Source: Lunularia cruciata (taxonomy: Eukaryota > Streptophyta > Marchantiopsida > Lunulariales > Lunulariaceae). From it: DNA of 64,000 nucleotides. The position numbers and the translations under genes were made by a program. Where the stretch lies: assembly GCA_948567375.1 (NCBI GenBank), contig OX419757.1, forward strand, positions 70,253,836-70,317,835, written 5' to 3'. Positions 1 through 43,522 of the stretch are shown one piece after another (the first letter of the stretch is position 1; each line of letters starts with the position of its first letter). Below the pieces are notes generated by a model, which was not told the DNA's origin, made no database searches, and saw nothing but the letters and a program-made list of their open reading frames with translations.

Positions 1-473
1 AGGCTCACAATCTAGGTCAAATAGTTTAGGTTCATAGCTTGACCTAACACTTAACGCCTGGACGCCTCTTACATTGCTAGAACAACGGTAATACCGGTGC
101 AAAAACCCATCACCCGCTTTCTCTCATTGGCATTGGGCTCCACCAACTACTGTAATTAAGAATCCCAAACAAGTCTAGGACCTCCCTCTCAAAAAACATG
201 AGAGCTTGGGAAACTCATAAGTGTGGCAAAAGTGGCTCTAGGCTATCCAACTAGGTTCTCCATTGCCATAAGTGACCTATAAATCACTATTACCATTTGA
301 GACTGATACACAACATCCAAGATGTAATTAACAATGATGTGGTCTAGTTGTCAAATCCCATCATAAGCATGTTATAGAACCTCTCTAGGTAAGAGGTTTA
401 TCCACCAAAGACGAAGATAATGAGCTTGTGATCCCACTTTAGCTGCATTTAACAAAATACCAAGTCCCATCTA
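1..473 (-). mobile_element. Family B Ty3 fragment (methyltransferase part)
   Basis: This piece matches, in reverse orientation, about positions 22873-23345 of the fuller copy B1. It covers the C-terminal part of the DNA methyltransferase-like domain, motifs VIII to X, including the segment resembling LGQAM near the left edge. It begins outside the window and ends where the LTR of A1 starts, so A1 was inserted into it. It is a broken fossil. It matters because it is an independent copy of the methyltransferase-bearing family. Confidence 0.8.
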
Positions 474-857
474 TGGTGCCCACATTTTTTGTTTTTTTCA
501 AAATAAAGGAGAAGAAGTGTATAGAGAAGTCGGATTGCGCCTGTATGGCCAAAGAAAGCGAAGAAAAGAGTCTTTGGGATGAAACCCAAAGTAAAGTGAC
601 TTTGGGTCATAAGGCAAAGTACTCAGAAATGCCCTATCAGCATACAACCCAAAGTAAATTGTCTTCGGATCGGGGGGAGCTCAACCCGAGGCGAAGATAG
701 TCTAACAACCTTTCATCGGGGCGAGAAATTCAAGAAGGAGCTGTTTGAAAATGGGCGGCTCATACGCACGAAGGTTGATTGACAGTGACATGTGCATGTT
801 GGAGGTGTGATTTTTTGGTAGGAACTTGAAGTGACGGAAGACGAAGAAGCACAACTC

Positions 858-7694: not shown

Positions 7695-7706
7695 TCGACT
7701 GATCAA

Positions 7707-15349: not shown

Positions 15350-15364
15350 GTACCCTTTGTGCCA

Positions 15365-17701: not shown

Positions 17702-18540
17702 TGTCACGCCATTTGTAGTTCCGCATCTAGATGCTCGGACACTGGAGTTCCAGTGATGGTAGTTAGAGTTATTCTAGCAATTTCTCAGGGACTACTTTCC
17801 GACGGTTAGATTTCATGTTCGGGGTACTGACTTCACGGTGGGGCCCACCGTCACTTTGCACCGTTCGCACCGTCGAGTGTGCCGTCAGCGGGACCGTTAG
17901 GGTTTCAGGGCTAGCTGGAGTCCAAGGGGTATAGTTTTGAAGTGAGCTCCAGAGAGCTCACTTCTCTGATGTTGAGCCTTCGAGTTCCTGGCTATGGTGG
18001 ACAGAGCCCGGTGAGCGTCACCTGGATTCTCTATGCTTGAGTGGGTGTGGCTTGACTGTAATCAATGCCCAGTTGTTGGCAGTTTATAGAGTGACAGATC
18101 AAGTACTGATCTGAGTTGAGTTGAGTTGAGAGTGTTAAGCAATCTGATTACATCAGAGAAGTGAAGTCAGGGGGAAATCGGGTGCAGGAACGTTGAGTGT
18201 TGGTGGTATCTCCAAGCTCGGTGGATCGTGGTAGCTCGATTCAGGTTCTGTGTTTCCCTAGTGTGCAGAAGCTCGTGTAGTTGATGCAAATTTGGCAGTT
18301 AGGCGGACGGTGTGCGGAAGCGCTGGCCAAATTTTGAGCAAAGAAGGAGCAATTTTTGAGCAATGTTGTGATTTTGAGCTCAGGAGGTGAAGGCAGGACC
18401 AATTTGCTGCGAGTTGGGCTTAGAAAGTGAAGGTGGAGTTGGAAAGCTCTTCTCATGAAATTGTGATTTGGAAAAACCCGTTTTGTCAATTTGGCTCGAG
18501 TGGAAAGTTAGCGGGGGATTTGGCGGACATCCATCTTTAG

Positions 18541-18690
18541 GGTTTACATCAGATTTTACGTCAGATTTACGTCAGATTTTTGGGCCAGAATTGGAGGAGT
18601 TTTGCTGTTTGGCCAGATTTGGAGAAGTTTTGCTAGTTTGGAGGAGTTTTGCAGATTTGGAGAAGTTTCGCCAATTTTGGAGGAGGTTCG
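18541..18690 (+). repeat. Short imperfect tandem repeats in B leader
   Basis: Two or three copies of a unit near TTTTACGTCAGA are followed by four or five copies of a unit near TTTGGAGAAGTTTTGC. The same cluster is present, diverged, in the reversed copies at about 28380-28520 and 42880-42980. Confidence 0.55.
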
Positions 18691-18790
18691 AAGTGGCAAC
18701 AAGAAAGGCCTCATTTGGCTGAATTTCGGCGTTTCGAGGCATAGGGCTGTGGGCTATGAGAGGCTACGAAGGCCTAGAAGGGCCAGAAGG

Positions 18791-18812
18791 GCCAGCAAGC
18801 CAGCTTGCTGGC
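18791..18812. repeat. Perfect 9-bp stem hairpin in B leader
   Basis: GCCAGCAAG, a 4-base loop, then CTTGCTGGC. The reversed copy at about 28257-28278 keeps both arms intact; the copy near 42748 is decayed. Retroelement leaders often carry palindromes used for RNA dimerisation, so that is a possible role, not shown. Confidence 0.5.
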
Positions 18813-18879
18813 GTGAGGCTAGCTAGTTTAGTGTAGATCTTGGTCATTGGTTGGCAAAATCTACCTTTCTTGCTAGATT

Positions 18880-18952
18880 GTGCGTAACAGGGTTTGACCC
18901 CTAGATCTCTTGTTCCTAGACTGGTGCTCTAGCCAACTGGTCCACCCTCACT
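18880..18952 (-). repeat. tRNA-like (SINE-head-like) sequence, antisense in B leader
   Basis: On the minus strand GGTGGACCAGTTGGCTAGAG resembles a tRNA D-arm and A box. About 35 bases on, GGGGTCAAACCC resembles a T-arm and B box (consensus GGTTCRANYCC, with a mismatch). Copies in the other family B leaders keep both boxes (plus strand, about 28123-28195 and 42610-42685). It is too degenerate to be a working tRNA. It looks like a captured tRNA-derived SINE head that could hold a polymerase III promoter. Confidence 0.5.
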
Positions 18953-19085
18953 TGTTGTCATAGTGACTGTGCCACTGTTATCTATACACATGTAGCTTTG
19001 GCTAGGAGAGGCAGTTTGATCACATTCTTGGTGATCCTGGTAGCTTAGGACTTAGATACGAACTACTCTTATGTCAAATGCCAAA

Positions 19086-19100
19086 TGGTGGCAGAGTCAG
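19086..19100 (+). other. Primer binding site, initiator-Met-tRNA-like
   Basis: TGGTGGCAGAGTCAG matches the complement of the plant initiator tRNA-Met 3' end (TGGTATCAGAGCCAG) at 12 of 15 positions. It is kept in the reversed copy near 27966-27982 and, more diverged, near 42464-42480. It places the end of the 5' terminal region at about 19083. Confidence 0.6.
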
Positions 19101-19448
19101 TCCTGTGTTGTGTTATGAGATGGAGGGTTTTTATTTAGATTTCTTGTGATTGGATCCCCTCCATTCTCTGCTTCTTGTTTGTGCACCAAGTTTGTGTGAG
19201 GTGCCCTGACTTTTGAGCATTGGTGCTCTGGTGTGCTCTCGGTGGTGAGGCTGGAGTGATGACCAGTCAGACTACCTTTGTTTCTCTTCGGTGAGGCAGG
19301 AAGTGATGACCTGCAGACCGTGGGAGTGCGTGTTATGATGGCAGGTTATAGGTTGCCCTTCCCCTAGTGTAGTTATCTCGGTAAGCGTTACATTAGTGGG
19401 TGGTGTTTAGTTGGTGTTGGCACTTGGTGGGGCACTTGCGGTTGCGAC

Positions 19449-20519
19449 TTGCTGTTGCAGTTGGTGGTTCGGGTTTGTTGGTGTGGTTACTTTGTCACGA
19501 TGGAGTTCTTTGAAGATTCCAGAGGAGTTAGCCCTGTAGTACGCAGTGGGTTTACTCGGAGTGGTGCTTGGTATCAGCCTGTATCTCAGGTCCCAGTGAG
19601 GGAGGAGATTGACTCTGAGTTGGAGTTTGACACAGGAGCTGATTCAATTGAGAGTGCACTTGGTGTGTCCGCACCGTTGTTGTGGGACATGGACAAGATT
19701 TATGGGGCCTCCAAAGGCCCTAGGCATTACTCTGGTATAGTGGGTACCATTGAGTTGGATGACTTCATCCAGGAGTTTGATAGTTGGTGTGATCTGCAAC
19801 AGATGCGGAACCCGACTTTGTTCACACCTTTCATGGCATGGAAGGGGTTGTTTCAGCACTTGGAGGGTCCGCCGATGGACAACTACCATGAGTTCAGGAG
19901 AGCTCATTTGGAGGAGATTGAGTTATGGAGACAATATTGGTCTCCACACTATGTCTCCATCACTTTAGGCTCGGTGGCCAGGAGTAGATCGGCGGTACCC
20001 ACGAGTTCTAGCTCGAGTAGTGTTGGTGGAGCTAGTGGAGGTGCACTAGCTGGAGATAGTGCTACTACGAGTGGAGGTACCGCTGCAGGAGGTGGTGTGG
20101 TACCGGGGTTTAACCCCATGGTGGAGTTCTTCCTATGTTTGAGGCAAAACTACTAGGGAGTGCGGACTGACAAGCTGAGGAGCTTGCAGGAGTTCCAGCG
20201 GAAGGCTGGAGAGAGCCTACGCGAGGCATATACTTGCATGAGCCGGCTGATCAGTTTCACTCAGGGAGTTATTGAGGCCCAAGCAGTCCAGTTTTGGTAT
20301 GGGATACTGGACAGGGAGTTGCGACGTAGAGTTCGTGATGCTACGTTGTTGCAGGCTACTTCGCCCACTTTGGCAATAGTCTTTGGTTTGGTTGAGCGTA
20401 TTGAGCTCAACATGGTGGAGGAGAGAGTGGTGACAGCTGGATTTGGTAGAGAGACCTCATCCACGGTTGTGACTTCTTCTAGAGTGCAGCAGAGTGCACC
20501 ACGCCCAGCTGGTCTTTGA
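19449..20519 (+). pseudogene. gag: B1 gag core
   Basis: Gag-like core with WKGLFQHLEGPPMDNYHEF and SLQEFQRKAGESLREAYTCM, the helical capsid-like part of Ty3 gag. The first methionine after the leader with a good fit is at about 19500 (MEFFEDSRGVSP); the frame is open from 19449. A Ser/Gly-rich low-complexity linker is at about 19990-20095. Broken fossil; the zinc knuckles follow in the same register. Confidence 0.65.
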
Positions 20520-20591
20520 GGACAGGGGGGACAGCCTAGATCCTATGGAGCGAGTGGAGGGCCTAGTGGAGTTAGACCCTTACCCTCATTT

Positions 20592-21155
20592 TTGGGTCAA
20601 CAGCAGCTAGTGAGTGGTGGTGTTGCTTGTTGGACTTGTGGTGGACCTCACCATAGGAGAGAGTGTACTCAGGGCAGCGGACCTGATACCTCTGGTGCAT
20701 CACAGCCAGCACAGAGGCAATGTGAGCACTGCCATAGATTTGGTCATACTAGTGACCGGTGTTTTGACCTACACCTGAAGTTACGGAGTGGTAGGGCTGC
20801 TATGGCAGGTGGTAGAGGAGCTCCTGTTCATGGAGGACAAGGTGGTAGAGGTGGTGGTAGAGGATCTACACTTAGTAGGGGTGCAGTACCTGCCCTTACT
20901 TTTGACACAGCTATGGCTACTCGGATTGAGCAGTTGGAGCAGAGATTGGCTAGTATGGCTATTGCTCAGAGGAGATCACATTCGGGTGCTGAGGCTTCCA
21001 CCTCATATGCTGGTGATAGAGATGCTTTGGACTTCATGTGCGGAGCAGCACAGGTGGATGCATCTGCAACAGTGACTAGGAGTGCAGTACGTGCTCCAAA
21101 GCCTAGAGGAGCATCAGTGGAGTTGGACCCACAGAGAGGAGAGGTTGGGAGATAG
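20592..21155 (+). pseudogene. B1 gag nucleocapsid, two zinc knuckles
   Basis: CWTCGGPHHRREC (about 20628-20666) is a C-x2-C-x4-H-x4-C-like knuckle, with a second His next to the usual one. CEHCHRFGHTSDRC (20721-20762) is a canonical CCHC knuckle. Next come a Gly/Arg-rich basic stretch (GGQGGRGGGRG, about 20839-20871) and a short coiled-coil-like segment (RIEQLEQRLASMAIAQ). This is the RNA-binding part of gag. Confidence 0.7.
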
Positions 21156-21176
21156 GTCAGACTTCCCCAGTCTTTC

Positions 21177-21806
21177 ATGCTATCTGAGGCATTGCAGACG
21201 ACATCCATGGTTCCTAGACGTCCCAGTGCATGTGTGGTAGGTGGTGATGGAGTACCTGATGGAGTACCTGCTAGTCAGCCACCTGCTACTACACAGATTG
21301 AGTCTAGCATGATGATGGGGGCGGCTCAGCTGATTATGCGACATCCTTTATTTTCAGCCAGTGACATGTTTACATTGGGAGTTGACCCAGCCCCAGTGTT
21401 CCGGTTGGCTGCCACATTGTGTGAGAGTAGGGATGGTGCAGTTCCTACTACTAGAGCAGAGGTGGTTGGTAGTGGAGCTGACTTGGTTGAGGAGCATGGG
21501 ATCCGTTCAGCCACCAGTGGTTTATGGCAGGCAGCAGCGGCTAGACTGGAGGAGTTGCCAGCTAGACCGGCCTTTGAGAGAGCGCGGTTTACACATGGTG
21601 TTGTCCTATTGGATAACCAGAGGGGGATCTTTCGTTTGGTGGGACCTTCAGGGAAGGTCTATACACCACAGAGAGTCTTGTTAGACTTTGGTGCGCAGCC
21701 CCTTATGTTGGGGAAGGCTGCAGTTGTTGGTTTGGAGTTACGGAAGACCGATGTAGAGAGGTGTCCATTTCAGATCCAGACATCTCTTGGTGGTGGTTCG
21801 ACATAG
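21177..21806 (+). pseudogene. B1 protease region
   Basis: The C-terminal third contains RVLLDFGAQPLMLGKAAV (about 21672-21725). It sits in the place of the retropepsin active-site strand (hydrophobic-L-D-x-G-A-x-x-x-x-hydrophobic). Upstream sequence (21177-21600) is Ala/Thr/Pro-rich and unrecognised. The assignment depends on position between gag and pol as much as on the motif. Confidence 0.5.
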
Positions 21807-21866
21807 TACATCACACGTGGAGAGCTTGTTGTCCAGGTTCAGCCTGGTCATCCGACTGATAGCTCG

Positions 21867-22400
21867 GTGGTGAGAGCTCAGGCTATTGCGACGATAGCTG
21901 AGTCATATGATGTGCTAGTTGGGGGAGCAGTGTTATACCCTATGGGTTTCAGCTTTGACTATTGGGAGGAGACAGCCTCTTATAGACCTGGTTGGCAGTC
22001 TGGTGAGGGACGGGTATGTCGCCTACCAGTACGCTTCAGTAGTGGCAGTCTTGGCTCACTACAGTCCGGGACCATGGCAGCATCAGTTTTAGCTTTCAGC
22101 GGTGTAGTTACTTGGCCTGGTGACTTGTTGGAGGGGAACGCCCATGCAGAGGATACTCCAGTACCAGAGGAGATCACTCGGCTATGGAGTACGAGTGGGA
22201 TTGTTCCATCCACCTTGGATGTTCCATTGTGGAGTTCAGAGGAGGCATTGCAGCAGCATGCAGATCAGTTGGTGCAGCAGGCTTGGAGTGGAGCCTTTGT
22301 ACCATCAGGGGATGAGTGTGAGGATGAGCCTCCAGAGGCAATTGCTTTGACACCTCTGGATACCACACTCATTGCTTGGCAGTATCCAGTAGAGGGGATA
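21867..22400 (+). pseudogene. B1 spacer domain, unknown
   Basis: About 178 residues between protease and methyltransferase. It has a globular-looking start (YDVLVGGAVLYPMGFSFDYW, which may be the C-terminal half of the protease fold, compare the LLLGRPWL block of other elements) and an acidic tail (DECEDEPPEAIALTPLDTT). No other family is recognised. Part of it is kept in B2 at about 39190-39770. Confidence 0.4.
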
Positions 22401-23333
22401 TGTCTATTGGAGTTGTTTGGTGGGATCAGCACCGGACTAGCTGCGGTGTTACAGGCGGGTATCCGAGTACAGACATACTTGTATGTAGAGAGAGATGAGA
22501 CTGCTAGGCGAGTCTCTCTACATCATGTGGCACACTTGGCCTATCGGTATCCGGAGTTATTACCGATGTCAGCAGTCAGAGGTTACCAGAAGGCCTTACC
22601 AGGAGACATTTCCTTATTGGAGGTGCATGACCTAGAGAGACATGGGCCTATTCACTTGGTGATTTCTGGATGGCCATGTTAGGGACATACACGTGCGGGC
22701 CGTGGTTTGGGTCTTCAGGATCCTCGTTCTGGTGTGTTTTGGGAGATGTTACGGATATTACGACATCTCCAGGTTCATCAGTTTGTTTCTCCAGCTTACC
22801 TTTTGGAGAACGTTCCATTGATGGGTGATTCTTGCACTAGAGTGGTGGCAAGTACACATCAGGTCCATTCATGGATGGGACCTGCTGTATTGTTAGATGC
22901 AGCCAGAGTGGGATCACGGGCTCATCGTCTTCGTCTTTGGCGGACGAACCTCTTACCCAAAGAGGTTCTGCAGCGTAGTTATGATGGGATTTAGCGACTA
23001 GACCACATTCTTGTTGATGATATCTTGGATGTTGGACGTCAGTCTCAGACAGTGGTAGTGGTTGATAGGTCACCTATGGCAGTGGTGAACCTAGTTGAAC
23101 AGCCTAGAGCTGCATTTCCCACACTCATGAGTTTCCCAGGCTCTCATGCTTTTCGAGAGGGAGGACCTGGACTTGTTTGGGACTCACAGTTACAGCAGTT
23201 GGTGGAGCCCAATGCTGATGAGAGAGAGCGGGCGATGGGTTTTCGCACCGATATTACCGCTGTTCCAGCAGTGTTAGAGGCATCCAGGCGTCAGGTGTTA
23301 GGTCAGGCTATGGACCTGAACTGTTTGACCTAG
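22401..23333 (+). pseudogene. B1 C5 cytosine DNA methyltransferase domain
   Basis: C5 methyltransferases transfer a methyl group from S-adenosylmethionine to cytosine in DNA. Motifs appear in the canonical order. Motif I, LLELFGGISTGLAAVLQAG (about 22404-22460), is the cofactor loop; motif II, with its acidic residue, is in YVERDETARR (about 22482-22511); motif III is GDISLLE (about 22602-22622). Motif IV is ISGWPC (22662-22679), holding the catalytic cysteine; motif VI is LLENVPLM (about 22800-22823); motif VIII is SRAHRLRLWRTNL (about 22914-22952). Motifs IX-X are in ADERERAMGF and RRQVLGQAMD (about 23214-23315). Motif VIII and the RSGVFWEMLRIL block recall Dnmt3/DRM-class enzymes. The domain sits between protease and RT in the same register. 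It is also present in the fragments at 1-473 and 38140-39200. Fossil, broken. Confidence 0.85.
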
Positions 23334-23336
23334 ATT

Positions 23337-23774
23337 GTGAGCCTTGGTTTGGCAGAGCAGCGTAGGATGCGCTTGATAGGCATCACCACTCGGACACTTG
23401 TGAGCCCTGTGCCTATCGAGACGATTCAGGCACGTGCTGGGGGCGATGGACCGAGTGGAGATGGTATTCTTGGGACACATCCAGTAGCTACTAGGGAGAG
23501 TGGTCTACTTGGAGTCCATCCAGGTGAGCGTGGGCTACTTGGATTACACCCTTGGTCCACATGGGATGCAGCCAGAGGACGTATGGAGCTTGCAGCCAGA
23601 GTGGAGGGAGTTTTTCACACAGAGGTTGGGACCTCTAGTGGTCGGGAGCATGACACCATTGCTCCGAAGGGCTCAGTGTAGCAGCCAGTCAGTACGTCTT
23701 CCACTCCTACTACAGTTACAGAGGATACTTGGGAGCCAGATCTTGGACCCAAGCTTACTGGAGAGGAAAGACGG
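23337..23774 (+). pseudogene. B1 linker between methyltransferase and RT
   Basis: About 145 residues with repeated short blocks of the type GxLGxHP (GILGTHPVA, GLLGVHPGE, GLLGLHPWS). These look like three tandem copies of an 8-12 residue unit at about 23465-23560. No known domain is recognised. The B2 copy has related sequence at 37889-38130. Confidence 0.45.
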
Positions 23775-25088
23775 ATGGTTTGGAGGTTCTTGAGGAGTCA
23801 CACGAGTTGTTTTGCCTTCAGTATGAAGGATTTGGGTGCTCTGAAGGGACCTGGTATACGGATTGAGCTGACTAGCGACACACCAGTTTTCCGACGTCCT
23901 TATCAATATAGTGATATGGAGAGGACATTGATTCAGAGCCGGAGTAGTGACCTTTTTGAGGCTGGTTTGGTGGAGATTTCACATGGAGAGTATGCATCAG
24001 CGACAGTGATGCTAGCCAAGAAGGATATGCATGGCAACTATACAGATAGGCGGATGTGTGGAGATTACCGTCCTATCAACCAACAGACCAGGGCTGATCG
24101 GTATGCCATGCCTACACCGGAGGAGATTTTTGATGCGATTGGGCATGCAAAGGTCTTCAGTACTTTGGATCTTCGAGCGGGATATCATCAGTTGCCGATC
24201 AGGGAGGAAGATAAGTCCAAGACAGCATTTTGGGCTATTGATCCTCACGGCAAGGATGTGTTATATCAGTGGAGGTTCTTACCATTTGGGTTGAAGAACG
24301 CTCCTACTGAGTTCCAGAGGGTCATGGATAGGATCCTAGCTGGACTGGATTTTGCTCGATGCTATATTGATGACATTTTGGTGTATAGCACTACTGTGGA
24401 GGAGCATGAGCGACAGTTGTTGGAGGTGTTTGAGAGGTTGAGATCTCATGGACTCAAACTACATCCTGGGAAGTGTAGGTTCTTCCACAAGCAGGTTGAG
24501 TATTTGGGTCACACTATCTACCCCGGAGGACTTGGTGTTCAGCAGACCAAGGTGGAGGCTATTGCACGTATTCCTCGGCCTACGGATGTGAGCACAGTGC
24601 GAGCATTCCTTGGGTTGGCGAACTTCTATCGCCGCTATGTTAGAGGATTTAGTGCCATTGCCAAGGCCTTGACGAAGCTGACCAAGCTTACACAAGAGTG
24701 GTGTTGGGGAGATGAGCAAGAGAGAGCTTTTGTAGAGCTCAAGGAGAGGTTGACATCTGCTCCTATTTTGAGGAGACCGATCGAGGGACGACCATTTCAG
24801 GTTCATACTGATTGGAGTATGTTGGGGCTTGGAGCGGTGCTCACCCAACATGATGATGAGGAGAAGGAGTTTGTGGTGGCCTATGCTAGTCGCTCCAACA
24901 ATTCAGTGGAGGCAAAGTATAGTTCATATGAGGGAGAGTGCTTGGCAGCAGTTTGGGCAGTAGCACATTTCCGATGTTACCTATTTGGTAACCCCTTCAC
25001 TCTCATCACTGATCATCAGCCGCTGAAGTGGTTGATGGAGTCCGACAAGCTTTCAAGGAAGCTTGCACGATGGGCTCTGATTTTATAG
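23775..25088 (+). pseudogene. pol: B1 reverse transcriptase and RNase H
   Basis: Reverse transcriptase blocks: CGDYRPINQQTRADRYAMP, FSTLDLRAGYHQLPI, FLPFGLKNAPTEFQRVMD and the active site YIDDILVYS (about 24361-24390). RNase H follows from about 24786 with VHTDWSMLGLGAVLTQHDD, YEGECLAAVWAV and a TDHQPLKWLM block. The Y-I-D-D-I-L form and LRAGYHQ block differ from the F-I-D-D-F-C form of families A and C, so B is a separate Ty3 lineage. B2 carries a matching region (about 34850-35262 and 36960-37720). Confidence 0.85.
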
Positions 25089-25121
25089 GAGTATGATTTC
25101 ACGGTTGTTCACAGACCTGGA

Positions 25122-26645
25122 GTGGTGAACCGTGATGCAGATGGGTTGAGTAGAAACCCATGTCCCAACCAGCAGGATCAGACCGGAGCACGTTGGCATG
25201 GTGAGACAGATGAGGAGATGGTGCCAGGTTGGCATGCATCGGCCTTTCTGTGTATATTTGCAGAGACTTTGGTGGTATCTCTCTCAGCGCATACAGGAGG
25301 AGTTATTGAGGTCACAGATCCAGAGAGTGAAGATATTGGTACAGTTCAGCGAGACATTCATGATGATGTCTTAGTGATGGACTATCTTTGCATTGGTGTT
25401 GTGGGTGGCACAGTTGGGGCCAAGGAGAGAGACCGTGTTCTTCAGCGAGCCAGACGGTTCAGATTGGAGGGTAGACACCTTTTGCGTGTATGGGAGGATG
25501 GTAGAGTGCGAGTAGTACCACTTCCATCATAGAGACCACAGTTGGTCCGTCATGCTCATGAGGAGCTAGGACATTTTGGAGTAAAGCGTACATATAGCTT
25601 ACTTCAGAGTCATTATTGGTGGCGCGGTATGCAGACCGGGGTACAACAGTTTGTTGCCAGATGTGTGGTTTGTGACCGAGTTAGAGCATCATTCAATGCT
25701 CCTACGCCACAGTTACACCCATTACCTATCATGGGATTGGGTTACCGTTGGAGTTTGGACTTCGCCGGACATTTACCGCTGACTGTGAGACATCATCGGT
25801 ATGTTTTGGTGATGGTGGAGCACTTCTCCAAGTGGATTGAGTTGGTGGCACTTCCTGACAAGTCTAGTGAAGGGACAACTTACTCATTCTTGGATCGAGT
25901 TCTTAGTCATTTTGGTGCACCAGCTGAGGTTTTGACTGATCAGGGTACAGAGTTCTTGGGAGAGTTTCAGGTCTTGTGTGACAAGGCTTTGATTGATCAT
26001 CGTACTACATCCCGAGATCACCTTGAGGCAGATGGCTTAGCAGAGAGAGTGGTTCAGACGGTGAAGAGAGGATTGCGAAAGTATGGTTTGCAGAGAGGCC
26101 ACTTGGGAGATTGGGATCTCCAGTTACCTTGGTTGGCCATGGGCTATCGGTTCAGCCGGCAAGCCTCCTTAGCATCCTTCTCTCCATACTTTCTACTCTA
26201 TGGACGAGATCCAGATTTACCTGCAGCCATTCGTCGAGATGCTACTGGAGTTTTGGACTTGGATGACCCCGATGTATGGATGAGCGCATGTTCTCAGCGG
26301 GCAGAGATCTTTCGGAGAGTGATGCCGATGGCCTTTGAGAACTTGGCGATTGCTCAGCATAGAGATACTTTACGCTATGCTACCATTCAAGGAGGAGATT
26401 ATAGACCCTTGATCCGTCAATTTCATCCAGGCGACTATGTATATCTACAGCAGACAGCACCGACGACACTTGATGTTTCTACAGGCCGCACTATCTTGAG
26501 AGTGCGTGAGGTTTTGTCATCTGGAGTCCTTGTGTTAGAAGGACATGATGGTGTTGTTTGGAAGGATCATGTGCGCAATTGTGCGCCATGCCACCTTCCA
26601 AACATTGATGGTACTATGGACCAAAGCTTGGCACTTGTACGTGCA
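25122..26645 (+). pseudogene. B1 RNase H tail and integrase
   Basis: The first part has the terminal RNase H signature NRDADGLSR and a linker. Integrase then starts near 25542 with an HHCC zinc-binding module (HEELGHFGVKRTYSLLQSHY and CVVC). The catalytic core has the acidic blocks WSLDFAGHL, LTDQGTEFLGEF and ADGLAERVVQTVKRG. The C-terminal part has the FHPGDYVYLQQ block (about 26429-26461), usual before the C-terminal targeting module of Ty3 integrases. The targeting module here is a PHD finger instead of a chromodomain. Confidence 0.8.
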
Positions 26646-26792
26646 GGCTTGAGGTGTATGTTATGTGGCTCTTTTGGTGGAGCTGCTACTATGTTAGTGT
26701 GTGATAGCTGTTCGAGAGGATGGCATATGGCATGTATGACTCCTCCCCTCACGGTGGTTCCTCAGGGACAGTGTTTATGTCCTAGATGTACT
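26646..26792 (+). pseudogene. PHD finger at the C-terminus of B1 integrase
   Basis: PHD fingers are zinc-binding readers of histone H3 tails. The last 49 residues show the full Cys4-His-Cys3 set: CMLC, then MLVCDSC, SRGWHMAC and CLCPRC. The CDSCSRGWHMACMTPPL core is very close to classic PHD fingers, with the usual Trp before the zinc His. It lies directly at the end of the integrase in the same register, where chromoviruses carry a chromodomain. B2 has the same finger, decayed, at about 33145-33260. A role in directing insertion to marked chromatin is inference. Confidence 0.85.
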
Positions 26793-26949
26793 TGACCTAT
26801 AGCTAGTTCATTCTTTATATGGTATAGATTGGAGACAGGCGACTAACGATGGGGCTCCATAGCACCCGGCCTCCTGATCTTTGCCCATTAGAGGGTATAC
26901 CATATACTTAGAGTAGATGGCTATCTGGAGTTAGAGGGACCTAACCGCC

Positions 26950-27069
26950 AGCTAGGGGGGCGATTGTGGCACTTTAGAGTCTATGTATGACTTATGTGTG
27001 AGTTGTGCTTTTATAGTGTATGATGTTGACAGCGATGTATGTTGTGTAGCGATGTATATACCCACGACA
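26950..27069 (+). repeat. B1 3' end: polypurine tract and 105-bp terminal module
   Basis: A polypurine tract (AGCTAGGGGGGCGAT, 26950-26964) is followed by TGTGGCACTTTAGAG and 105 bases ending CCCACGACA at 27069, where the target duplication TGGA begins. The same 105-base module recurs twice in B2 (32844-32946 and 32262-32366, reversed). It does not occur at the 5' end of B1. The 156 bases before the tract (26796-26949) hold nothing recognised. Confidence 0.7.
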
Positions 27070-27831: not shown

Positions 27832-29369
27832 TCTCCAGAGCACCAACGCTCAAAAGTCAAGGCCCCTCACACAAACGTGGTGCACAAACAGGAAGTAGAG
27901 AATAGAGGGGATCCAATCACAAGAAATCTAAACAAAAACTCTCCATCTCATAACACAACACGGGATTGACTCTGCCACCATTTGGCATTTGACATAAGAG
28001 AAGTTTGTATCTAAGTCCTAAGCTACCAGGATCACCAAGAATGGGATCAAACTGCTTCTCCTAGCCAAAGCTACATGTGTATAGATAACAGTGGCACAGT
28101 CAATAGGACAACAAGTGAGGGTGGACCAGTTGGCTAGGGCACCAGTCTTGGAACAAGAGATCTAGGGGTCAAACCCTGTTGCGCACAATCTAGTAGGAAA
28201 GGTAGATTTTGCCAACCAATGACCAAGATCTACTCTAAACTAGCTAGCCTCACGCCAGCAAGCTGGCTTGCTGGCCCTTCTAGGCCTTTGTAGCCTCTCA
28301 TAGCCCACAGCCCTATGCCTTGAAGCCTCTAAACGCTGAAATTACGCCAAATGAGGCCTTTCTTATTGCCACTTTGAACCTCCTCCAAAATTGGTGAAAC
28401 TTCTCCAAATCTGCAAAAGTCCTCCAAACTAGCAAAACTCCTCTTAATCTGGCCAAACAGTGAAACTCCTCCAAATCTGGCCAAAATTTGATGTAAAATC
28501 TGACCAAAATCTGATGTAAAATCTGACATAAACCCTAAAGTTGACGGTCCGCCAAATCCCTCGCTAACTTTCCACTCGAGCCAAATTGACAACACGGGTT
28601 TCTCCAAATCACAAATTCATGAGAATAGCTTCACAACTTCACCTTCAATTTGACTTTCTGAGCCCAACTCGCAGCAAATTGGTCAATTCCTTCACCTCTT
28701 GAGCTCAAAATCACAACCACTGCTCAAAATTTGCTCCTTCTTTGCTCAAAATTTGGCCAATGCTTCCGCACCCCGTCTGCCTAACTGCCAAATCAGCATC
28801 AATTGAACAAGCTTTTGCACACTAGGGAAATACTGAACTTGAATTGAGCTACCAATGATCTACCAAGCTTGGAGATACCACCAACACTCAAAGTTCCTGC
28901 ACCCGATTTCCCTCTAACTTCACTTCTTTGATGTAATCACATTGCTTACCACTTTCAACTCAACTGAACTCAGATCAGTACTTGATCTGTCACTCTATAA
29001 ACTACCAACAACTTGGCACTAATTACAGTCAAGCCACACCCACTCAAGCATAGAGAATCTAGGTGACGCTCGCCGGCCTCTGTCCACCATAGCCAGGAAC
29101 TCGAAGGCTCAACATCAAAGAAGTGAGCTCTCTAGAGCTCACTTTGAAACTATACCCCATGGACTCGAGCTAGCTCTGAAACCCTAACGGTGCCATTGAC
29201 GGTGCAAACGGTGCAAAGTGACGGTGGGCCCCACATGAAGTCAGTACCCCGAACACAAAATCTGACCATCGGAAAGTAGTCTTTGAGAAACTGCTGAAAT
29301 AACTCTAACTACTATCACTAGAACTCCAATGTCCGAGCATCTAGATGCGGCACAACAAATGGCGTGACA
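27832..29369 (-). mobile_element. Family B fragment, 5' terminal region
   Basis: Matches B1 from its first base (29369 equals 17702) to about 19215, through the hairpin, tRNA-like sequence and primer site. No coding part is present. Its outer edge is at exactly the same base as B1's, with unrelated sequence outside. Confidence 0.85.
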
Positions 29370-32261: not shown

Positions 32262-32946
32262 TATCGTGCATATATACATCTATATATAACATACATCACT
32301 ATCAACATCATACACTATAGACACACAACTCACACATAAGTCATACATAGACTCTAAAGTGCCACAATAATCAATTTGTTTATACCACTCAAATCAACTC
32401 ACTTAGATCAGTACTTGATCTATCACTCTATAGACTATCAACAATTGGTCATTGATTATAGTCAAGCCACACCCACTCTATCTAAGAGAATCTAGGTGAT
32501 CCTCATCAGTCTCTATCCACCATAGCCAAAAACTTGAAGACTCAACATCAGAGAAGTGAGCTCTCTAGAGCTGCACTTTGAAAGTATACCTCTTGGACTC
32601 AAGCTAGGTTTCAAACCCTAATGGTCCCTCTCAAGCTAGGTCTCAAACCCTAAACCATTATATACCCAATGGTGCAAACAGTGCAAAGTGATGGTGGGCC
32701 CCACCATGAAGTCAATACTCCAAATACAAAATCTCACTATTGGAAAGTAGTCTACGAGTAATTGCTAAAATATCTCTAACTACTATCATTGCAACTCCAG
32801 TGTCCAAGCAATCTAGATGTGACACTACAAATGGCATGATAGTTGTTGTGCATATATACATTACTACATAACATACATCAATGTCAACATCATACGCTAT
32901 AGACACATAACTCCCACAAGTCATACATAGACTCTAAAGTGCCACA
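32262..32946 (-). repeat. B2 terminal modules, order E-S-E
   Basis: Reading the minus strand after the polypurine tract: a 103-base module (32946-32844, TGTGGCAC to CACAACA; call it E), two bases, then 475 bases matching the 5' start of B1 (32841-32367; call it S). A second 105-base E (32366-32262) follows. The E-to-S join resembles a CA-NN-TG LTR-LTR junction. Confidence 0.7.
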
Positions 32947-33144
32947 ATCGCTCCCCTAGCTAGCGGTTAGCTCCCTCTAACTCCAGATAGCCATCTACTC
33001 CAAGTATATGGTATGCCCTATGATGGGCAAGATCAAAAGATAGGATGCTATCAAGCCCCATCATTAGTTGCCTGTTTGCAATCTATACCATATAAAGGAT
33101 GAACTAGCTATAGGTCAAGTACATCTAGGACATAACCACTATCC

Positions 33145-34330
33145 TCAAGGAACCACCATGAAGGGAGGAGTCATACATACCATATGCCATCCTCTCAAAT
33201 AGCTATCACACACTAACATAGTAGTAGCTCCACAAGAAGAGCCATATAACATACACCTCAAGCTTGCACATACAAGTGCCAAGCTTGGGTCCGTAGTACC
33301 ATCAATGTTTGGGAGGTAGCATGGCGCACAATTGCGCACATGATCCTTCCAAACAACTCCATCACATCCTTCCAACACAAGGACTCTAGATAGCAAAACC
33401 TCATGCACTCTCAAGATAGTGCAGCTTGTAGAAACATCAAGTGTCATCGGTGTTGTTTGTTGTAGATATACATAGTCCGCTAGATGAAACTAACAGATTG
33501 AGGATCTATAACCTCCTCCTTGAATAGCAACATAATGTAAGGTATATCTATGTTGAGAAATCACTAAGTTCTCAAAGGCCATCGGCATCATTCTCCAAAA
33601 GATCTCTGCCTGTTGAGAACATGCGCTCATCCATACATATGGATCATCCAAGTCCAAAACTACAATAACATCTTGACAAATGGCTGCAAGTAAATTTGGA
33701 TCTTGTCCATAGAGTAGAAAATAAGGAGAGAAGGATGCTAAGGAGGCTTGCCGGATGAACCGATAGCCCATGGCCAACCAAGGTAACTAGAGATCCCAAT
33801 CTCCCAAGTGGCCAAACCATACTTTTGCAATCCTCTCTTCACCATTTGAGCCACTCTCTCTGCTAAGCTATCTACCTTAGGGTGATCTTGAGAGGTAGTA
33901 TGATGATCAATCAAAGCCTTGTCACAAAAGCCTTGAAACTCCCCCAAAAACTTTGTACCTTGATCAATCAAAACCTCAACTAGTGCACCAAAATAACTAA
34001 GAACCCGATCCAAGAACAAGTAAGCCGTCCCTTCATTGGACTTGTCTGGAAGTGCCACCAACTCAATCCACTTGGAGAAGTGCTCCACCATCACCAAAAC
34101 ATATCAATGATGTCTCACAATCAATGGTAAAGGTCTAGCAAAGTTCAAATTCTAATGATAATCCAATCCCATGATAGGTAATGGGTGGAACTATGGTGTA
34201 GGAGCATTGAATGATGCTCTAACTCGGTCACAAACCACACATCTGGCAGCAAATTGATGTACATCAATTTGCATACTACACCACCAATAATGACTTTGGA
34301 GTAAGCTATATGTATGCTTTACTCCAAAAT
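33145..34330 (-). pseudogene. B2 integrase and PHD finger
   Basis: Integrase blocks VMVEHFSKWIELVALPDKS (near 34040-34097) and LIDQGTKFLGEF (near 33945-33980), the integrase C-terminal region, and the PHD core MLVCDSYLRGWHMVCMTPP (near 33160-33220) are still readable. This copy confirms that the PHD finger is a family feature. Confidence 0.75.
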
Positions 34331-34849
34331 GTCCCAGCTTCTTGTGAGCATGATGGACCAACTGTAGTCTCTAAGATGGAAGTGGTACTACTCGCACTCT
34401 ACCATCCTCCCATACCCAAAGAAGGTATTTGCCCTCCAATCTGAACCGCTTGGCTCATTGAAGGACATGATCTCTCTCCTTGGCCCCAATTGTGCCACCC
34501 ACAACACCAGTGCAAAGATAGTCCACCACTAAGACATCATCACGAATGTCTTGCTAAATTGTACCACTATCTCCACTCTTTGGATTTGTGACCTCAATTA
34601 CTCATCCTGTATGCGTTGAGAGAGGTACCACCAAAGCCTTAGAAAATATACAAAGAAAGGTAGATGCATGCCAACCTGGTACCATCTCTTCATCTATCTC
34701 ACCATGCCAACATGCTCTGATCTGATCCTATTGGCTGGGACATGGGTTTCTATTTAACCCATTTGCAGCATGATTCACCACTTTATGAACAATCGTGAAA
34801 TCATACTCTTGTAAAATCAGAGCCCATCATGCAAGCTTCCTTGAAAGCT

Positions 34850-35257
34850 TGTCAGACTCCATCAACCACTTAAGTGGCTGATGATCAATGATGAGAGTGA
34901 GGGGCTACTAAATAGGTAACATCAAAGATGTGCTACTGCCCAAACTTCTACCAAGCACTCTCCCTTATATGAACTATACTTTGCCTCAACTGAATTGTTG
35001 GAGTGACTAGCATAGGCCACCACAAACTCTTTCTCCTGATCATCATGTTGGGTGAGCACTCCTCCAAGCCCCAACATACTCCAATTAGTGTGAACCCAAA
35101 ATGGTCGTCCTCTAATCGGTCTCCTCAAAATAGGAGCAAATGTCAACCTCTCTTTGAGCTCTAAAAAAGCTTTCTCCTGCTCTTCTCCCCAACACCACTC
35201 TTGTGTAAGCTTGGTCAGCTTTGTCAAGGTCTTAGCAATGGCATTAAATCCTCTAAC
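34850..35257 (-). pseudogene. B2 RNase H part
   Basis: Matches B1 24650-25088: WGEEQEKAFLELKERLTFAP, VHTNWSMLGLGGVLTQHDD and YKGECLVEVWAVAHL are readable. It is separated from the RT part by the family A solo LTR. Confidence 0.75.
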
Positions 35258-35262
35258 ATAGC

Positions 35263-36959
35263 TGTGACAACCCAACAAATATCACTTTTGTTGTAATCAA
35301 GTAAATAAAGTTTGTTACCATAGAGATACAAGTCAAAAATGTTCAAATACAAAGCAAAGTAACCAAATCAGTTCTTCTTGAGTTCTTCTTTAATCTCTCA
35401 AGTAGAAACCACACCCAGAAGAGAGTAACAAGCACTAGATTGAAATCTTGTCACGAATCAACACTCTTGAATCACAATTCATTCAATTTTGTCCAAACAA
35501 ATCTTGATTGTGATGATTCAAATTCTTCCAAGGACAGCTACTTCACTACAAAATGACTTCACCTCAAAATTGTGTTCTAGCCCTTCATTGAAGGCACAAC
35601 TTCCTCAATCAAAATTGCTTAGCATCAAACTCTTGTTGGACTCACAAATGCAAAATACTACCAACACTACAATTCCTCTCAAATTTGTCAAGGCATTGCT
35701 TTGATTGCACTTCACTCAGGATCAAAAACACAAATGAAGATCAAGGCTACAGAATCCAACATCCAACAAGCACACTAATTTGCACTTTGAAATTCTCCAC
35801 ACTCACAAACAAAAACACAAACTTGATACTCAAAAATTCAGCTCAAGTGACGAGCACTAAACTTAGCATTTTGCTTAATCTATCTTCAAAAATTATGAAT
35901 ACTAAACAATATAAAATTGTGAATGCCACCTTTAAATAGTAGAGCAATCAACAATTACTAACAAAAATACCATTCTACAATATCTCTACAACCTGTAGAT
36001 CCAAAATAGCAATGCACCTCTTCATATCTGCCTCTTCAAATCTCAAATCTGATCCGATGTCAACCTCAACTTTGGTTTCCAAACCCAAAGTAGCTTCATG
36101 CACTTCCCTAGCTTCTGGTCTATCTATTATCACTAAATCTTTTGCCAATTCTCCTACCTATTCATGCTGAACTATAGTTAAAGACATGGGTAATCTATCT
36201 ACATCTTTATCCTACAACCCACTCCCTCCTATTGTCTCCAATAATAGACCCAACGACACTCATTTTCTGATCTTGCACTTTGGATTCATTCATTATTACT
36301 ACTTTCCCTTTAATTTCTATCCTCAATCTGAATTGAAATTCAAGTCATGGGTATCCTAACTATCTCTTCTTTCTCTATTGTAACTATTTCAGACGCTTTA
36401 GATATTTGACCCAAAGGCTCTAACATTTGATGTCTGATTACCTTGGATTGTGTCACCTTTTTCCTGAGGTATCGTCTCTTGACCCAAAGTCATGTAAACC
36501 CAAAGTCATATAAGTTTTGAAGAAGCTTACTGAAAGTAACTCAACTACTCCATACATCTACTATAGAAACTTCAAATGCTTGTAAATTTTGCTCTAAATC
36601 TCCAAACTTTGTGATTTTGGTGGCAATAGAAAGGTCTAAAGAAGATGTTTCCAATGAAGTATAGCACGTAGGATTTGGACATGTGGTCATTGAGATAAAA
36701 GCCCCGTAGTAATCCTGCCTTCTAACTTCCATTTTGATAAAAATTACCCCTCCTTCTAGTCCAATCCTCCTTTGGGTCTGCCCTCCTTCTGGTCCAATCC
36801 AAATTCTTCTTCTTATGACACAAAGTCAACTTCCTTGGGTCAGACCAAAACATAAGCTTCTCCTCATATCTTTGTTTCTTTGTTTCCTTTGTTCAATTTG
36901 ATTTCAACAACGCACTTCTTCTTCAAAACTTGTCCAAAATGAAAAATGTGGGTACCACA
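35263..36959 (-). repeat. Family A solo LTR inside B2
   Basis: It starts TGTGGTACCCACA (minus strand, at 36959) and ends TTGTCACA (at 35263). The flanks carry a perfect 5-base duplication, ATAGC, at 35258-35262 and 36960-36964, so it was a clean insertion into the B2 RT/RNase H boundary. No internal element sequence remains, as expected when the two LTRs recombine. At 1.7 kb it is much shorter than the 3.8-kb LTRs of A1 and A2. Readable LTR coding segments are few. Confidence 0.85.
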
Positions 36960-37720
36960 ATAGCGGCAATAGAAGCTTGTCAACCTAAGGAATGCTCGCA
37001 CTTTGCTAACATCTATAGGTCAAGGAATACGTGCAATAGCCTCCACCTTGGTCTGTTGAACACCAAGTCCTCTAGAGTAAATAGTGTGACCCAAATACTC
37101 AACCTACTCATGGAAGAACCTACACTTCCCAAGATGTAATTTGAGTATATGAGATCTCAACCTCTTAAACACCTCCAACAATTGTCTCATATGCTCCTCC
37201 ACCATTGTGCTATAGACCAAAATGTCATCAATATAGCACCAAGAAAAATCCAATCCAACTAGGATCCTATCCATGACTCTATGGAACTCAATAGGAGTGC
37301 TCTTTAACCCAAATGATAAGAACCTCCATTGATATAACGCATCCTTACTATGAAAATCAATAGTCCAAAATGCAATCTTGGACTTATCCTGCTCCTCCTT
37401 GATTAGCAACTTATGATATCTTGCTCAAAGATCCAAAATACTAAAGACCTTTGCATGCCCAATCACATCAAAGATCTCCTTTGGTGTAGGTATGACATAC
37501 CGATCAACCCTAGTTTGTTGGTTGATAAGATGGTAATCTCCATACATTTGCCTATTTGTGTAGTTGCCATGCATATCCTTCTTGGATGGCATCACTATCA
37601 CTTATGCATACTCTCCATGTGAAATCTCCACCAAACCAACCTCAAAAAGGTCACTATGTTGGCTCTAAATCAATGCTCACTCTATGTCACTATATCGATA
37701 GGGACATCAAAAAATAGGTG
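36960..37720 (-). pseudogene. B2 reverse transcriptase part
   Basis: Contains RFLSFGLKSTPIEFHRVMD and the active site YIDDILVYSTMVEEH (about 37190-37235), matching B1 RT. Fossil. Confidence 0.75.
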
Positions 37721-38139
37721 TATCCCTAGTTAGCTCAACTTGTATACCAAGTCACTTTAGAGCACCCATATCCTTCATACTTCAGGCAAAAAAACTCGTG
37801 TAGCTCCTCAAGAACCTCCAAACCCTCCATCTTTCCTCTCCTATAAGCTTGGGTCCAAGATTTGGCTCCTAAGTATCCATTGTAATTGTCATAGGAGTGG
37901 AAGATGTATTGACTGGCTACTACATTGGATCCTTGGAAGGCATAGTGTCATGCTCCCACCCACTAGAGGTCTCAGCTGCAGTGTGAGAAACTCCTTCCAA
38001 TCTGGCTGCAAGCTCCATACGTCCTCTAGTTGCATCTCAAGTAGACCAAGGGTGTAATCCAAGAAGACCATGCTCACCTAGATGGAATCCAAGTAGACCA
38101 CTCTCCCTAGTAGCCATTGGCTGTGTCCCAAGAATACCC

Positions 38140-39200
38140 TACCCACTCGGTCCATCGCCTCTAACATGTGCCTGAATCGTCTTGATAGGCACAGGGCTCA
38201 CAAGTATTTGAGTGGTGATGCCTATCAAACGCATCCTATGTTGCTCTGCCAAGCCAAGGGTCACAATCCAAGTCAAACAGTTTAGGTCCATAGCTTGACC
38301 TAACACTTGATGCTTGGATGCCTCTAACACTATTGGAACAGCCATAATACTAGTGCAAAAACCTATTGCCAGCTCTCTCTCTCATTGGCGTTGGGCTCCA
38401 CCAACTACTGTATTTATGAGTCCCAAACAAGTCTAGGGCCTCCCTCTCAAAAAGCATGAGAGCTTGCAAAACTCATAAGTGTGGGAAAAGTAGCTCTAGG
38501 CTGTCCAACTAGGTTCACCACTACCAAAGGTGACCTACCAACCACTACCACCATCTGAGACTGATGCCCAACATCCAATATATCATCAATAATGATATGG
38601 TCTAGTTGCTATATCTCATCATAAGCATGCTATAAGCGCTCATGATCCCACTCTAGCTGCATCTAACAAAAAAGCATGTCCCATCCAAGAATGGACTTGA
38701 TGTGTACTCACCACCACCCGGGTGTGAGAATCACCCATCAAAGGAACATTCTCCAAAAGGTAAGCTGGAGAAATGGATTGATGAACCTAGAGATGTCATA
38801 GTATCCATAACATCTCCTAAAACACACTAGAATAGGGATCCTAAAGTGGTTTTCAGGATCCCCATTCTGGTGTGTTTTAGGAGCCTTTGCCAACATGTGT
38901 ATGTCCTTGACATGGCCATCCAAAAATCACCAAATGAACAAGCCCATGTCTCTCCAAATCATGCGCCCCTAGTAACCCCTAACTATTGACATCGGTCTAG
39001 ATATCATGTTGTCCATAACTTAGGATACCAATAAGTCAAGTGTGCCACATGATGTCAAGAGACTTGCCCAATAGTCTCATCTCTCTCCATGTATAAGTAC
39101 TTTTGTACTTGTATATTGCATATAAGACCACAACTAGTCCGGTGTTAATCCTCTTGAACAACTCTAGTAGACATACTCCCTCTATTAGATCCTACCAAGC
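38140..39200 (-). pseudogene. B2 DNA methyltransferase remnant
   Basis: Matches B1 22390-23345 along its length. The motif X segment EASKHQVLGQAMDLNCL is readable near 38265-38320, and the regions matching motifs I, IV and VI lie near 39130, 38900 and 38760. It is the third methyltransferase copy in the window. Confidence 0.75.
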
Positions 39201-42050: not shown

Positions 42051-43522
42051 ACCACAACCGCAATTTCAAGTACCCCACCAAGAACCAACACCACCAACTA
42101 AACACCACCAAGTACCAACAATAACTAAGCACCACCAAGTGCCAATACCAATGGAACACTACCTACTAATGTAACTCTAATTGAGACAACTATATTAGGA
42201 GAAAGGGCGACCTGAAACCTACCATCACAACACGCACTCTCACGGTCTACATGTCATCACTTCTTGCCTCACTAGAGAGAAACAAAGGTAGTCTGACCAG
42301 TCATCACTCCAACCTCACCACCGAGAGCACAATAGAGCACCAATACTCTAAATTCAAAGCACGTCACACAAACATGATGCTCAAATAGGAAGCAAAGAAT
42401 AGCAAGGATCCAATCACAAGAAATCTAAATGAAAACCCTCCATCTCCTAAAGCAACACGAGATTGACTCTATTGCCATTTGGCATTTGATATAATAGGAG
42501 TTCCTATCTACGTCCTAAACTACCAAGATGACCGAGAATGGGATCAAACTGCCTCTCTTAGCCAAAGTTATAAGTGTATAGATAATGGTGAGCTAGTCAG
42601 TAGGACAAGTGAGGGTGGACCAATTGACTAGGGCACTAGTCTAGGAACCAGAGATCTAGGGATCAAACCCTATTGCACACAATCTAGCAAGATGGATAGA
42701 TTTTACCAACGAATGACCAAGATCTACTCTAAACTAGCTAGTCTCATGCAAGCAAGCTGGCTTTCTGGCTCTTCTAGGCCTTCATAGTCTCTCATAGCCC
42801 ACAATCCTATGTCTTGAAGCCTCTAGATGCTGAAATTCAGCCAAATGAGGCCTTTCTTCTTGCCACTTTGATCCCTCTCTAAATCTGGAAAAATTCCTCC
42901 AAATCTAAGAAACTCTTCCAAATCTGACCAAAATTTGACATAAACTCTAACAAAAATCTGATGTAAAATCTGACATAAACCCTAAAGTTGGCTGATCACC
43001 AAATCCTCTGCTAACTCTTCACTTGAGCCAAATTGAAAAAAAAGAATTCTCCAAATCAGAAATTCACGAGGGTGAGTTCCCAACTCCACCTTCAATTCAC
43101 TTTCTGAGCACAACTTGCAACAAATTGGTCTTGCTTTCACCTCTTGAGCTCAAAATCACAACTACCACTTCAAAATTGCTTCTCTTTGCTTGAAATTTGG
43201 CCAATGCTTCCATACACTTTTTACCTTATTGCCAAAACTACATCAATCAATGAGCTTCTACACACCAAGGAAAAACCTAAACTTTGATCAAGCTACCAAT
43301 GATCCACCAAGCTTGGAGATACCACCAACACTCATACTTTTTGCACCCAATTTCCCCTTGACCTCTCTGATGTAATCAGTTTTTTTACACCACTCAAATA
43401 AACTCAACTCAAATTAGTACTTGATATGTCATGCTATAAACAACTAAGCATTGATTACAATCAAGCCACATAAACTCTAGCTAAGAGAATCCAAGTGACG
43501 CTCGCTGGCCTCTGTCCACCAT
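42051..43522 (-). repeat. B2 5' terminal region
   Basis: Matches B1 from about 18005 to 19500, with the primer site (about 42464-42480), tRNA-like sequence (42610-42685) and repeat cluster (about 42880-42980). The outermost 300 bases are missing at the junction with family C at 43522/43523. No gene. Confidence 0.75.

Follow-up and report, generated by a model that had tools for sequence, protein, structure and literature searches.

Methylase-bearing retroelements and the Lunularia family

DNA methylation is a main weapon of plants against retrotransposons, and yet the plant family treated below retains a methylase of its own. In the main texts searched, mostly of open-access papers, methylase-bearing retroelements are described from dinoflagellates and, among streptophytes, from one charophyte, and a land-plant family is not among them. 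According to the main text of PMC5890265, KnitGypsy-Dnmt3 of Klebsormidium nitens has a Dnmt3 domain in its Pol ORF and is treated as an independent acquisition in one alga. The dinoflagellate elements SymbioDIRS-Dnmt3 and SymbioLINE-Dnmt belong to other retrotransposon classes and are likened to the present family by their description only; two of the SymbioDIRS enzymes methylate CG in yeast (main text of PMC5890265).

The family described here was recognized in a stretch of 64,000 nucleotides from Lunularia cruciata (contig OX419757.1), hereafter the window. It shares with KnitGypsy-Dnmt3 the Gypsy domains, the Dnmt3-type domain, purifying selection and, judging by a figure legend in PMC5890265, DIRS-like repeats; it differs in its occurrence in land plants, a stop between the methyltransferase (DNMT) and the reverse transcriptase (RT), a PHD finger, 4-bp target duplications and its place in a clade of many members. 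The main text of PMC5890265 makes no mention of a PHD finger, readthrough or target site duplication. The split direct repeats, A1-B1-A2-B2, are those of PAT-type DIRS elements, but the latter use a tyrosine recombinase (text of PMC4157794), whereas the Lunularia family has an rve (DDE) integrase and 4-bp duplications; no tyrosine recombinase was matched by Pfam in element 1 of the window or its relatives, the rve integrase being found in its place. A UAG codon between upstream and downstream coding parts is known from MuLV, and the CAR-YYA context behind it from TMV (text of PMC2194720), but in Lunularia the upstream product also bears a DNA methyltransferase.

A methyltransferase domain inside a Ty3/Gypsy element

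The features of element 1, all on the plus strand, are as follows (window coordinates).

17702..27069, plus: element 1, an A1-internal-B1 unit without the A2-B2 tail; TGGA target duplication on the flanks
17702..18149, plus: A1, left split repeat, starting TGTCACG (right edge good to about 2 bases)
19428..21152, plus: Gag region by reading frame, candidate start ATG at 19500
20628-20666 and 20721-20762, plus: CCHC knuckles of Gag, by eye
21156..22364, plus: protease segment and linker by frame and motif, LLDFGAQ at 21678-21713 (LDSGAQ in the relative L080)
22365..23330, plus: DNMT3-type C5 cytosine methyltransferase domain with two in-frame TAG, by profile match and relatives
23334..23678, plus: linker from the DNMT to the conserved stop, by frame
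23679..23687, plus: conserved, probably leaky stop context TAG CAG CCA (UAG-CAR-YYA), a stop being present at this place in all 60 genome copies
23682..25085, plus: RT (PF00078, 3e-32) and RNase H (PF17917, 8e-34), YIDD at 24360-24383
25533..26792, plus: integrase with H2C2 zinc finger (PF17921, 3.2e-17) and rve core (PF00665, 1.4e-13)
26655..26789, plus: PHD finger at the integrase C-terminus (PF00628, 7.5e-7)
26951..26962, plus: purine-rich run GCTAGGGGGGCG directly 5' of B1, a possible polypurine tract resembling a run in L080
26963..27069, plus: B1, right split repeat, ending CACGACA, by repeat alignment

At the edges of the element (TTTTTGGA/TGTCACG and CACGACA/TGGATCC) TGGA is duplicated on either side, and the target is itself a repeat, of which an intact copy without the insert lies at 44309-43525 on the minus strand. 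A single reading frame extends over 19428-26792 with zero frameshifts and is broken by stops alone, ten of them (nine TAG, one TGA) preceding the terminal TGA. Two of these fall in the DNMT, at 22680, right behind the catalytic cysteine of motif IV, and at 22992; that at 23679, the junction stop, is conserved and does not reflect decay. The TGGA duplication at a known target repeat, taken together with the in-frame stops, thus marks element 1 as a genuine but dead insertion. The domains follow in the order Gag, aspartic protease, C5 methyltransferase, RT, RNase H, integrase and PHD finger, and the succession of protease, RT, RNase H and integrase, by which Ty3/Gypsy elements are classified, is found both here and in L080. 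Pfam had no match in the Gag region or the protease segment of element 1, while zf-CCHC and PF13975/PF13650, respectively, were matched in relatives.

In agreement with the sequence-only reading, the frame 22401-23333 contains the motifs of C5 methyltransferases in order, namely I (22401-22439), IV (GWPC, 22659-22679), VI (ENV, 22800-22817), VIII (22911-22940) and IX/X (23211-23321). The DNMT proper begins slightly ahead of this frame, at about 22365. The profile search which that reading had proposed gave a match to PF00145 with an E-value of 4.5e-7 (30.1 bits, the cut-off being 22) when X was placed at the two in-frame stops; after cutting at the stops, one of three pieces matched, with an E-value of 0.0054, under the cut-off. 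The DNMT lies between the protease segment (21156-21803) and the RT (23682-25085) in a register common to all three, no frameshift occurring from 19428 to 26792. The description of the domain as built into a Ty3/Gypsy polyprotein holds in that the domain is part of the element, but not in the sense of one continuous Pol, since the conserved stop splits the DNMT from the RT.

Among solved structures of C5 methylases, DNMT3A and DNMT3B rank first for these retroelement enzymes (retro-DNMTs), DRM2 and HhaI being weaker; in sequence, DNMT2 is far less similar to them than DNMT3. The DNMT3-like fold spans the whole catalytic domain, the motifs are unpermuted in contrast to DRM, and relatives show little or no variation in the catalytic cysteine, the E and N of ENV, and AHRxR. 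CMT and DNMT1 chains were absent from the PDB match lists at the cut-offs used, and a CMT or DNMT1 origin found no support within that scope. Taken together, these comparisons support the assignment of the window domain to C5 methyltransferases of the DNMT3 type. The domain is part of the element and common to the whole family. In five proteins (P0102, P0091, P0081, P0074 and P0079) motif IV reads GWECQ or GWDCC in place of GWPCQ, the cysteine being kept and the proline replaced by an acidic residue.

A host code with TAG as a sense codon was also considered. The three stray TAGs compared, at 22680, 22992 and 23331, read Gln, Gln and Trp in relatives or other copies, and transitions pile up at CG and CHG in the 60 genome copies described below; this code is therefore rejected.

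A conserved stop between methyltransferase and reverse transcriptase

A profile search of the Lunularia genome (565,766,749 bases, of which eight large contigs make up 557,989,605, or 98.6%) gave 123 scored PF00145 matches. Sixty copies were obtained by fetching these matches in list order to the 73rd row and leaving out four host-like loci (L100-L103), L104, L107 and seven others, mostly because of an off-range match. A stop is present at the DNMT-RT junction in all 60, as TAG in 59 and TAA in one, and the reading frame upstream and downstream of it is identical in 59 of the 60. The codons that follow are CAG CCA (54 copies), CAG CTA (two) or CAG TCA (one), all of which fit CAR-YYA, and CAG CAA, CAG CTT or TAG CCA, which do not, in one copy each; the complete UAG-CAR-YYA context, from which the TAA copy departs, is present in 56 of 60. 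L104 and L107 likewise have TAG CAG CCA. The runner-up stop column, at a CGA codon, is filled in 18 of 59 copies. Because the copies are so closely related (their pairwise identities have a median of 0.967), the shared stop is largely one ancestral event, and its count measures maintenance rather than independent gains.

The only independent case at the DNA level beside the 60 copies is L080 (CADCWO010000201.1), the one family member among 20 loci of the genome-contig search. This 9.3-kb contig holds a eukaryotic-type element with open frames and 127-bp identical ends; it is filed in a cyanobacterial MAG and is probably a contaminant of that bin. Its DNMT is about 50% identical to that of the window, and its Gag-protease-DNMT frame ends at a TAG at 3489, the sole stop between 3 and 6632 (about 2,200 codons), immediately followed in frame by RT, RNase H, integrase and PHD finger. 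The stop occupies the homologous place in L080 and the window, and the next six bases, CAATCA (TAG CAA TCA) and CAGCCA, respectively, are both CAR-YYA.

At the protein level, 111 relatives have an ORF reaching the end of the DNMT. In 54 of them the ORF stops 72-142 residues later without RT, many sharing a tail (PKVFA, EYVE, ALSATK); 41 end sooner, four end later without RT, and 12 have an RT or pol match. Some of these ends may be contig ends, and fused ORFs are under-counted, because the searches returned proteins of limited length only. The stop is not general, since other relatives with the DNMT between protease and RT (slot A) have both in one protein; this holds for K. nitens P0213, whereas the single uninterrupted DNMT-RT ORF of the KnitGypsy kind was not encountered in any of the 60 Lunularia copies. 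P0213, with the order DNMT-RT-RNase H-integrase, belongs to the slot-A clade like the window, and may be KnitGypsy itself. In the tree described below, the window and L080 belong with Marchantia P0142 and Calypogeia P0140 to a group of 20 rows (support 90), and all 11 fused slot-A proteins lie outside this group.

CAR-YYA behind a stop suffices for readthrough in TMV and other plant viruses (text of PMC2194720). UAG-CAR-YYA with an in-frame downstream ORF, the arrangement expected for readthrough, is found in the window, in L080 and in 56 of the 60 copies, and the stop is thus probably leaky. It could instead be an ordinary terminator, Pol being made from an internal start, by splicing or from an internal promoter, with the DNMT still on the Gag side. 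This is the situation in Candida Tca2, where the context of the gag/pol stop did not permit readthrough in yeast and a promoter was identified in its stead (text of PMC2194720). Two gene models, P0145 and P0061 from Marchantia and Riccia, continue from DNMT into RT, which may reflect splicing or an annotation artefact. An ordinary terminator seems quite unlikely, given that in L080 and in 59 of 60 copies the RT keeps the frame of the coding part before the stop, and that CAR-YYA is matched in both lineages.

Proposed role of the enzyme

The reading that we favour, at a probability of roughly 0.6, starts from the probably leaky stop. Most ribosomes would terminate at the UAG and yield Gag-protease-DNMT, and a few would read through to the full polyprotein; production at the level of Gag would therefore place many DNMT copies in each virus-like particle. 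There the enzyme would methylate double-stranded cDNA before integration, at CG by analogy with the SymbioDIRS enzymes, so that new copies would carry the mark on arrival. Insertion of a circle, or of a linear copy cut at its TGTC/GACA termini, would then fall to the integrase, which its PHD finger may guide, and would produce a 4-bp duplication. It is plausible that the element methylates its own DNA; the possible gains listed in the main text of PMC5890265 are passing as host DNA, shielding from editing or degradation, and slower, safer spread. The junction stop predicts the dose and location of the enzyme; from the split repeats and their 4-bp duplications, an unusual substrate for integration is to be expected. 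With a high-copy land-plant family and its bryophyte relatives, the question moves to cultivable organisms, among them a genetic model.

Alternatively, the domain could act on RNA or serve the particle by binding nucleic acids. In yeast the K. nitens enzyme failed to methylate DNA, a result deemed inconclusive by its authors, and RNA was suggested by de Mendoza as the substrate of the LINE type (main text of PMC5890265). The DNMT3-like fold across the catalytic domain, the retained catalytic residues and the far weaker match to DNMT2 all argue for a DNA methylase, and we regard a role on RNA or in binding as improbable.

Selection and decay in the genome-wide family

In the Lunularia genome the family is apparently a young, high-copy one of Ty3/Gypsy type, and the DNMT3-type methyltransferase is, judged from the sequences, a standing part of its gag-pro gene. 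We compared nonsynonymous and synonymous changes shared by at least six of the 60 copies with those found in single copies, excluding changes present in two to five. The shared changes were 27 nonsynonymous to 27 synonymous in the DNMT against 158:53 among singletons (p 0.0008), and 17:22 against 125:51 in the RT (p 0.0015). The difference persisted for transversions only (DNMT, 1:3 against 79:13, p 0.014; RT, 1:4 against 63:15, p 0.009) and was not significant for transitions only (p 0.085 and 0.11, respectively). Shared substitutions are thus enriched in synonymous changes and the DNMT behaves as the RT does, on small counts and with hot spots that may mimic sharing. Between the window family and L080, pN and pS are 0.361 and 0.734 for the DNMT and 0.258 and 0.79 for RT-RNase H, both synonymous values being near or past saturation.

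Transition rates per site in the 60 copies are 0.072 at CG, 0.054 at CHG and 0.009 at CHH, and the copies therefore bear the trace that methylation at CG and CHG would be expected to leave, by whichever enzyme. This excess, which makes methylation of the copies in the germ line probable, would also suit a DNMT kept for self-silencing, which dampens the element and spares the host rather than protecting cDNA, an option raised by de Mendoza (main text of PMC5890265). The family is nevertheless high-copy with many similar copies, and marks at CHG are the expected work of host enzymes, a CMT-like locus being recognizable by eye in the genome; self-silencing as the reason for retention is accordingly unlikely.

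Origin of the methyltransferase

A quick tree of 68 rows, rooted with four bacterial or phage enzymes, included 61 retro-DNMTs; three rows were long, five were of odd composition, and none was a named Sphagnum protein. All 61 retro-DNMTs form one long-branched clade (support 98) beside host DNMT3, whereas the DNMT3 (L100) and DRM (L101) of the Lunularia genome, named by eye from their motifs, group with human DNMT3A (support 91) outside it. A constraint joining host DNMT3 to the 11 rows closest to the window cost 52.6 log units (AU p 0.047, these rows having been grouped post hoc). The sequence-only reading had taken the domain as inherited with the parent element and not captured by chance, and had proposed a tree as a check; run with the K. 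nitens enzyme included and dinoflagellate enzymes left out, the tree bears this out, as does the identical junction in 60 of 60 copies. That each copy is instead a separate recent capture of host DNMT DNA is next to impossible: no point was found in its support, and per-copy capture is ruled out by the clade lying apart from the genome's DNMT3, by the AU test on the post hoc group and by the shared junction. A second DNMT3-like host locus seen by eye (L103, G000:C1:51668693) consists of exon-like pieces with a stop and is perhaps a pseudogene.

Within the retro-DNMT clade, slot A (protease-DNMT-RT) comprises 36 rows (support 90), including the window, K. nitens P0213 and Closterium P0240 and P0265. 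The other branch (support 95) holds 17 of 18 rows with the DNMT between RNase H and integrase (slot B) and seven rows with no slot assignment; the remaining slot-B protein, P0214, was placed in neither branch. By order, the fetched proteins comprise 32 with RT-RNase H-DNMT-integrase-PHD and 13 with DNMT-RT-RNase H-integrase, with or without PHD. The difference in slot stems either from relocation of the domain inside the polyprotein or from two fusions of a single stock. The tree, which has no dinoflagellate enzymes, suggests that the retro-DNMTs are one old stock within the green lineage. The slot-B set (P0152, P0157 and 30 others) shows the same DNMT clade in PHD-bearing Gypsy polyproteins, mostly from unnamed records. 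In P0097, the DNMT lies behind a stretch resembling a DIRS-type RNase H by eye; Pfam found no RNase H in this protein.

Family relatives occur in Marchantia, Calypogeia, Riccia and Sphagnum, and the land-plant setting surmised from the letters is corroborated by liverworts and Sphagnum being the nearest named relatives. The expected extension of the charophyte picture was borne out by the addition of a land-plant family, but this family is not separate from the charophyte one, the K. nitens protein lying inside the same clade. A search of viral contigs with P0002 gave no match; a profile search of these contigs gave 79 loci with best-segment identities of at most 48%, which were taken for phage or bacterial methylases, and one of them (L063) served as an outgroup row.

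The integrase of L080, like that of element 1, ends in a PHD finger (PF00628, 4.3e-10), and of the 71 fetched pol proteins that lack a DNMT, 48 have such a finger too. Among the solved structures nearest to the finger are CHD4, PHF12, UHRF1, KDM5A/B and PHF21A, several of which read unmodified H3 tails. The finger may steer the choice of insertion site.

Split repeats and integration

Both ends were fetched for 20 genome copies, 17 of which have the full pattern A1-internal-B1-NN-A2-NN-B2; of the others, one has no right end, one has no left end, and one lacks the left A and has a single right B. The identical repeats at both ends that characterize Ty3/Gypsy LTRs are thus not found, the left end having A only and the right B1-NN-A2-NN-B2. 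Target duplications of Ty3/Gypsy elements are 4-6 bp long, and a 4-bp duplication outside A1 and B2 was observed in 15 of the 17 complete copies (absent in L174/L175 and L186/L187), as well as in element 1. The B1-A2 spacer is GC in 13, AC in three and GT in one of the 17 copies, and GC in L080 too; the A2-B2 spacer is TT in 15 of 17. A purine-rich run precedes B in element 1 and L080. Mean identity is 97.3% for A1 against A2 within a copy and 96.2% for A1 between copies. The right end of L206/L207 (G000:C2:62725143-62736543) has B without A2-B2, like element 1, and its fetched left stretch has no A.

The tRNA primer site of Ty3/Gypsy elements lies behind the 5' repeat and starts with TGG. No such site was seen by eye after A1 in the 17 copies; TTACATCAGAGA directly follows A1 in 14 of them (18148-18160 in the window) and differs by one base in the others.

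These ends could be explained by a reverse transcript with terminal B-GC-A repeats, which would be joined at A-TT-B to give a circle; the integrase would cut this circle open at a palindrome of 10 bp, GACAGCTGTC (GACA-GC-TGTC), for insertion with a 4-bp duplication. The A-internal-B form of element 1 would then derive from a circle with a single repeat, from two cuts in a linear copy, or from subsequent recombination of B1 with B2. All 17 copies are right-heavy, contrary to what a random choice between two circle sites would yield, and the split repeats may therefore be built by a templated route as in PAT elements.

Our most inclusive reading is a tentative one, on which we would not insist. 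It would see in these elements a green-lineage clade of self-methylating retroelements, older than land plants and with a single DNMT origin; its bryophyte branch would make the methylase at the Gag level, upstream of a leaky UAG, for work in the particle, and would pass through a two-repeat circle (LTR = B-GC-A, joined A-TT-B) opened at GACA-GC-TGTC. If true, the circle model would explain DIRS-like split repeats in an element with a DDE integrase.

Other copies and repeats in the window

The window contains three further members of the family.

32264..43522, minus: element 2, decayed and 5'-truncated, with another repeat inserted at about 35263-36959, by blastn and repeat alignment
39209-38271, minus: DNMT of element 2, frameshifted and decayed, by translation comparison
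32950-32844 (B1), 32839-32368 (A2) and 32368-32264 (B2), minus: tail of element 2, by repeat alignment
470-15 within 1..475, minus: third copy, C-terminal part of the DNMT only, by translation and blastn
27835..29369, minus: 5' fragment of a further copy (A1 and leader), by repeat alignment

The domain had also been noticed in two more copies, and both were verified, at 39209-38271 and 470-15. By blastn, element 1 is 81-88% identical to element 2 and 83% to the third copy. The junction codons of element 2 are TAG TAG CCA.

Another Ty3/Gypsy-like element with a 969-aa open frame lies at 12455-16953 on the minus strand, and the stretch 14537-17423 recurs at 57132-60020 with 92% identity. Two copies of a long repeat (80%) occupy 474-7703 and 44311-51512, with related stretches elsewhere, in a landscape of nested repeats.
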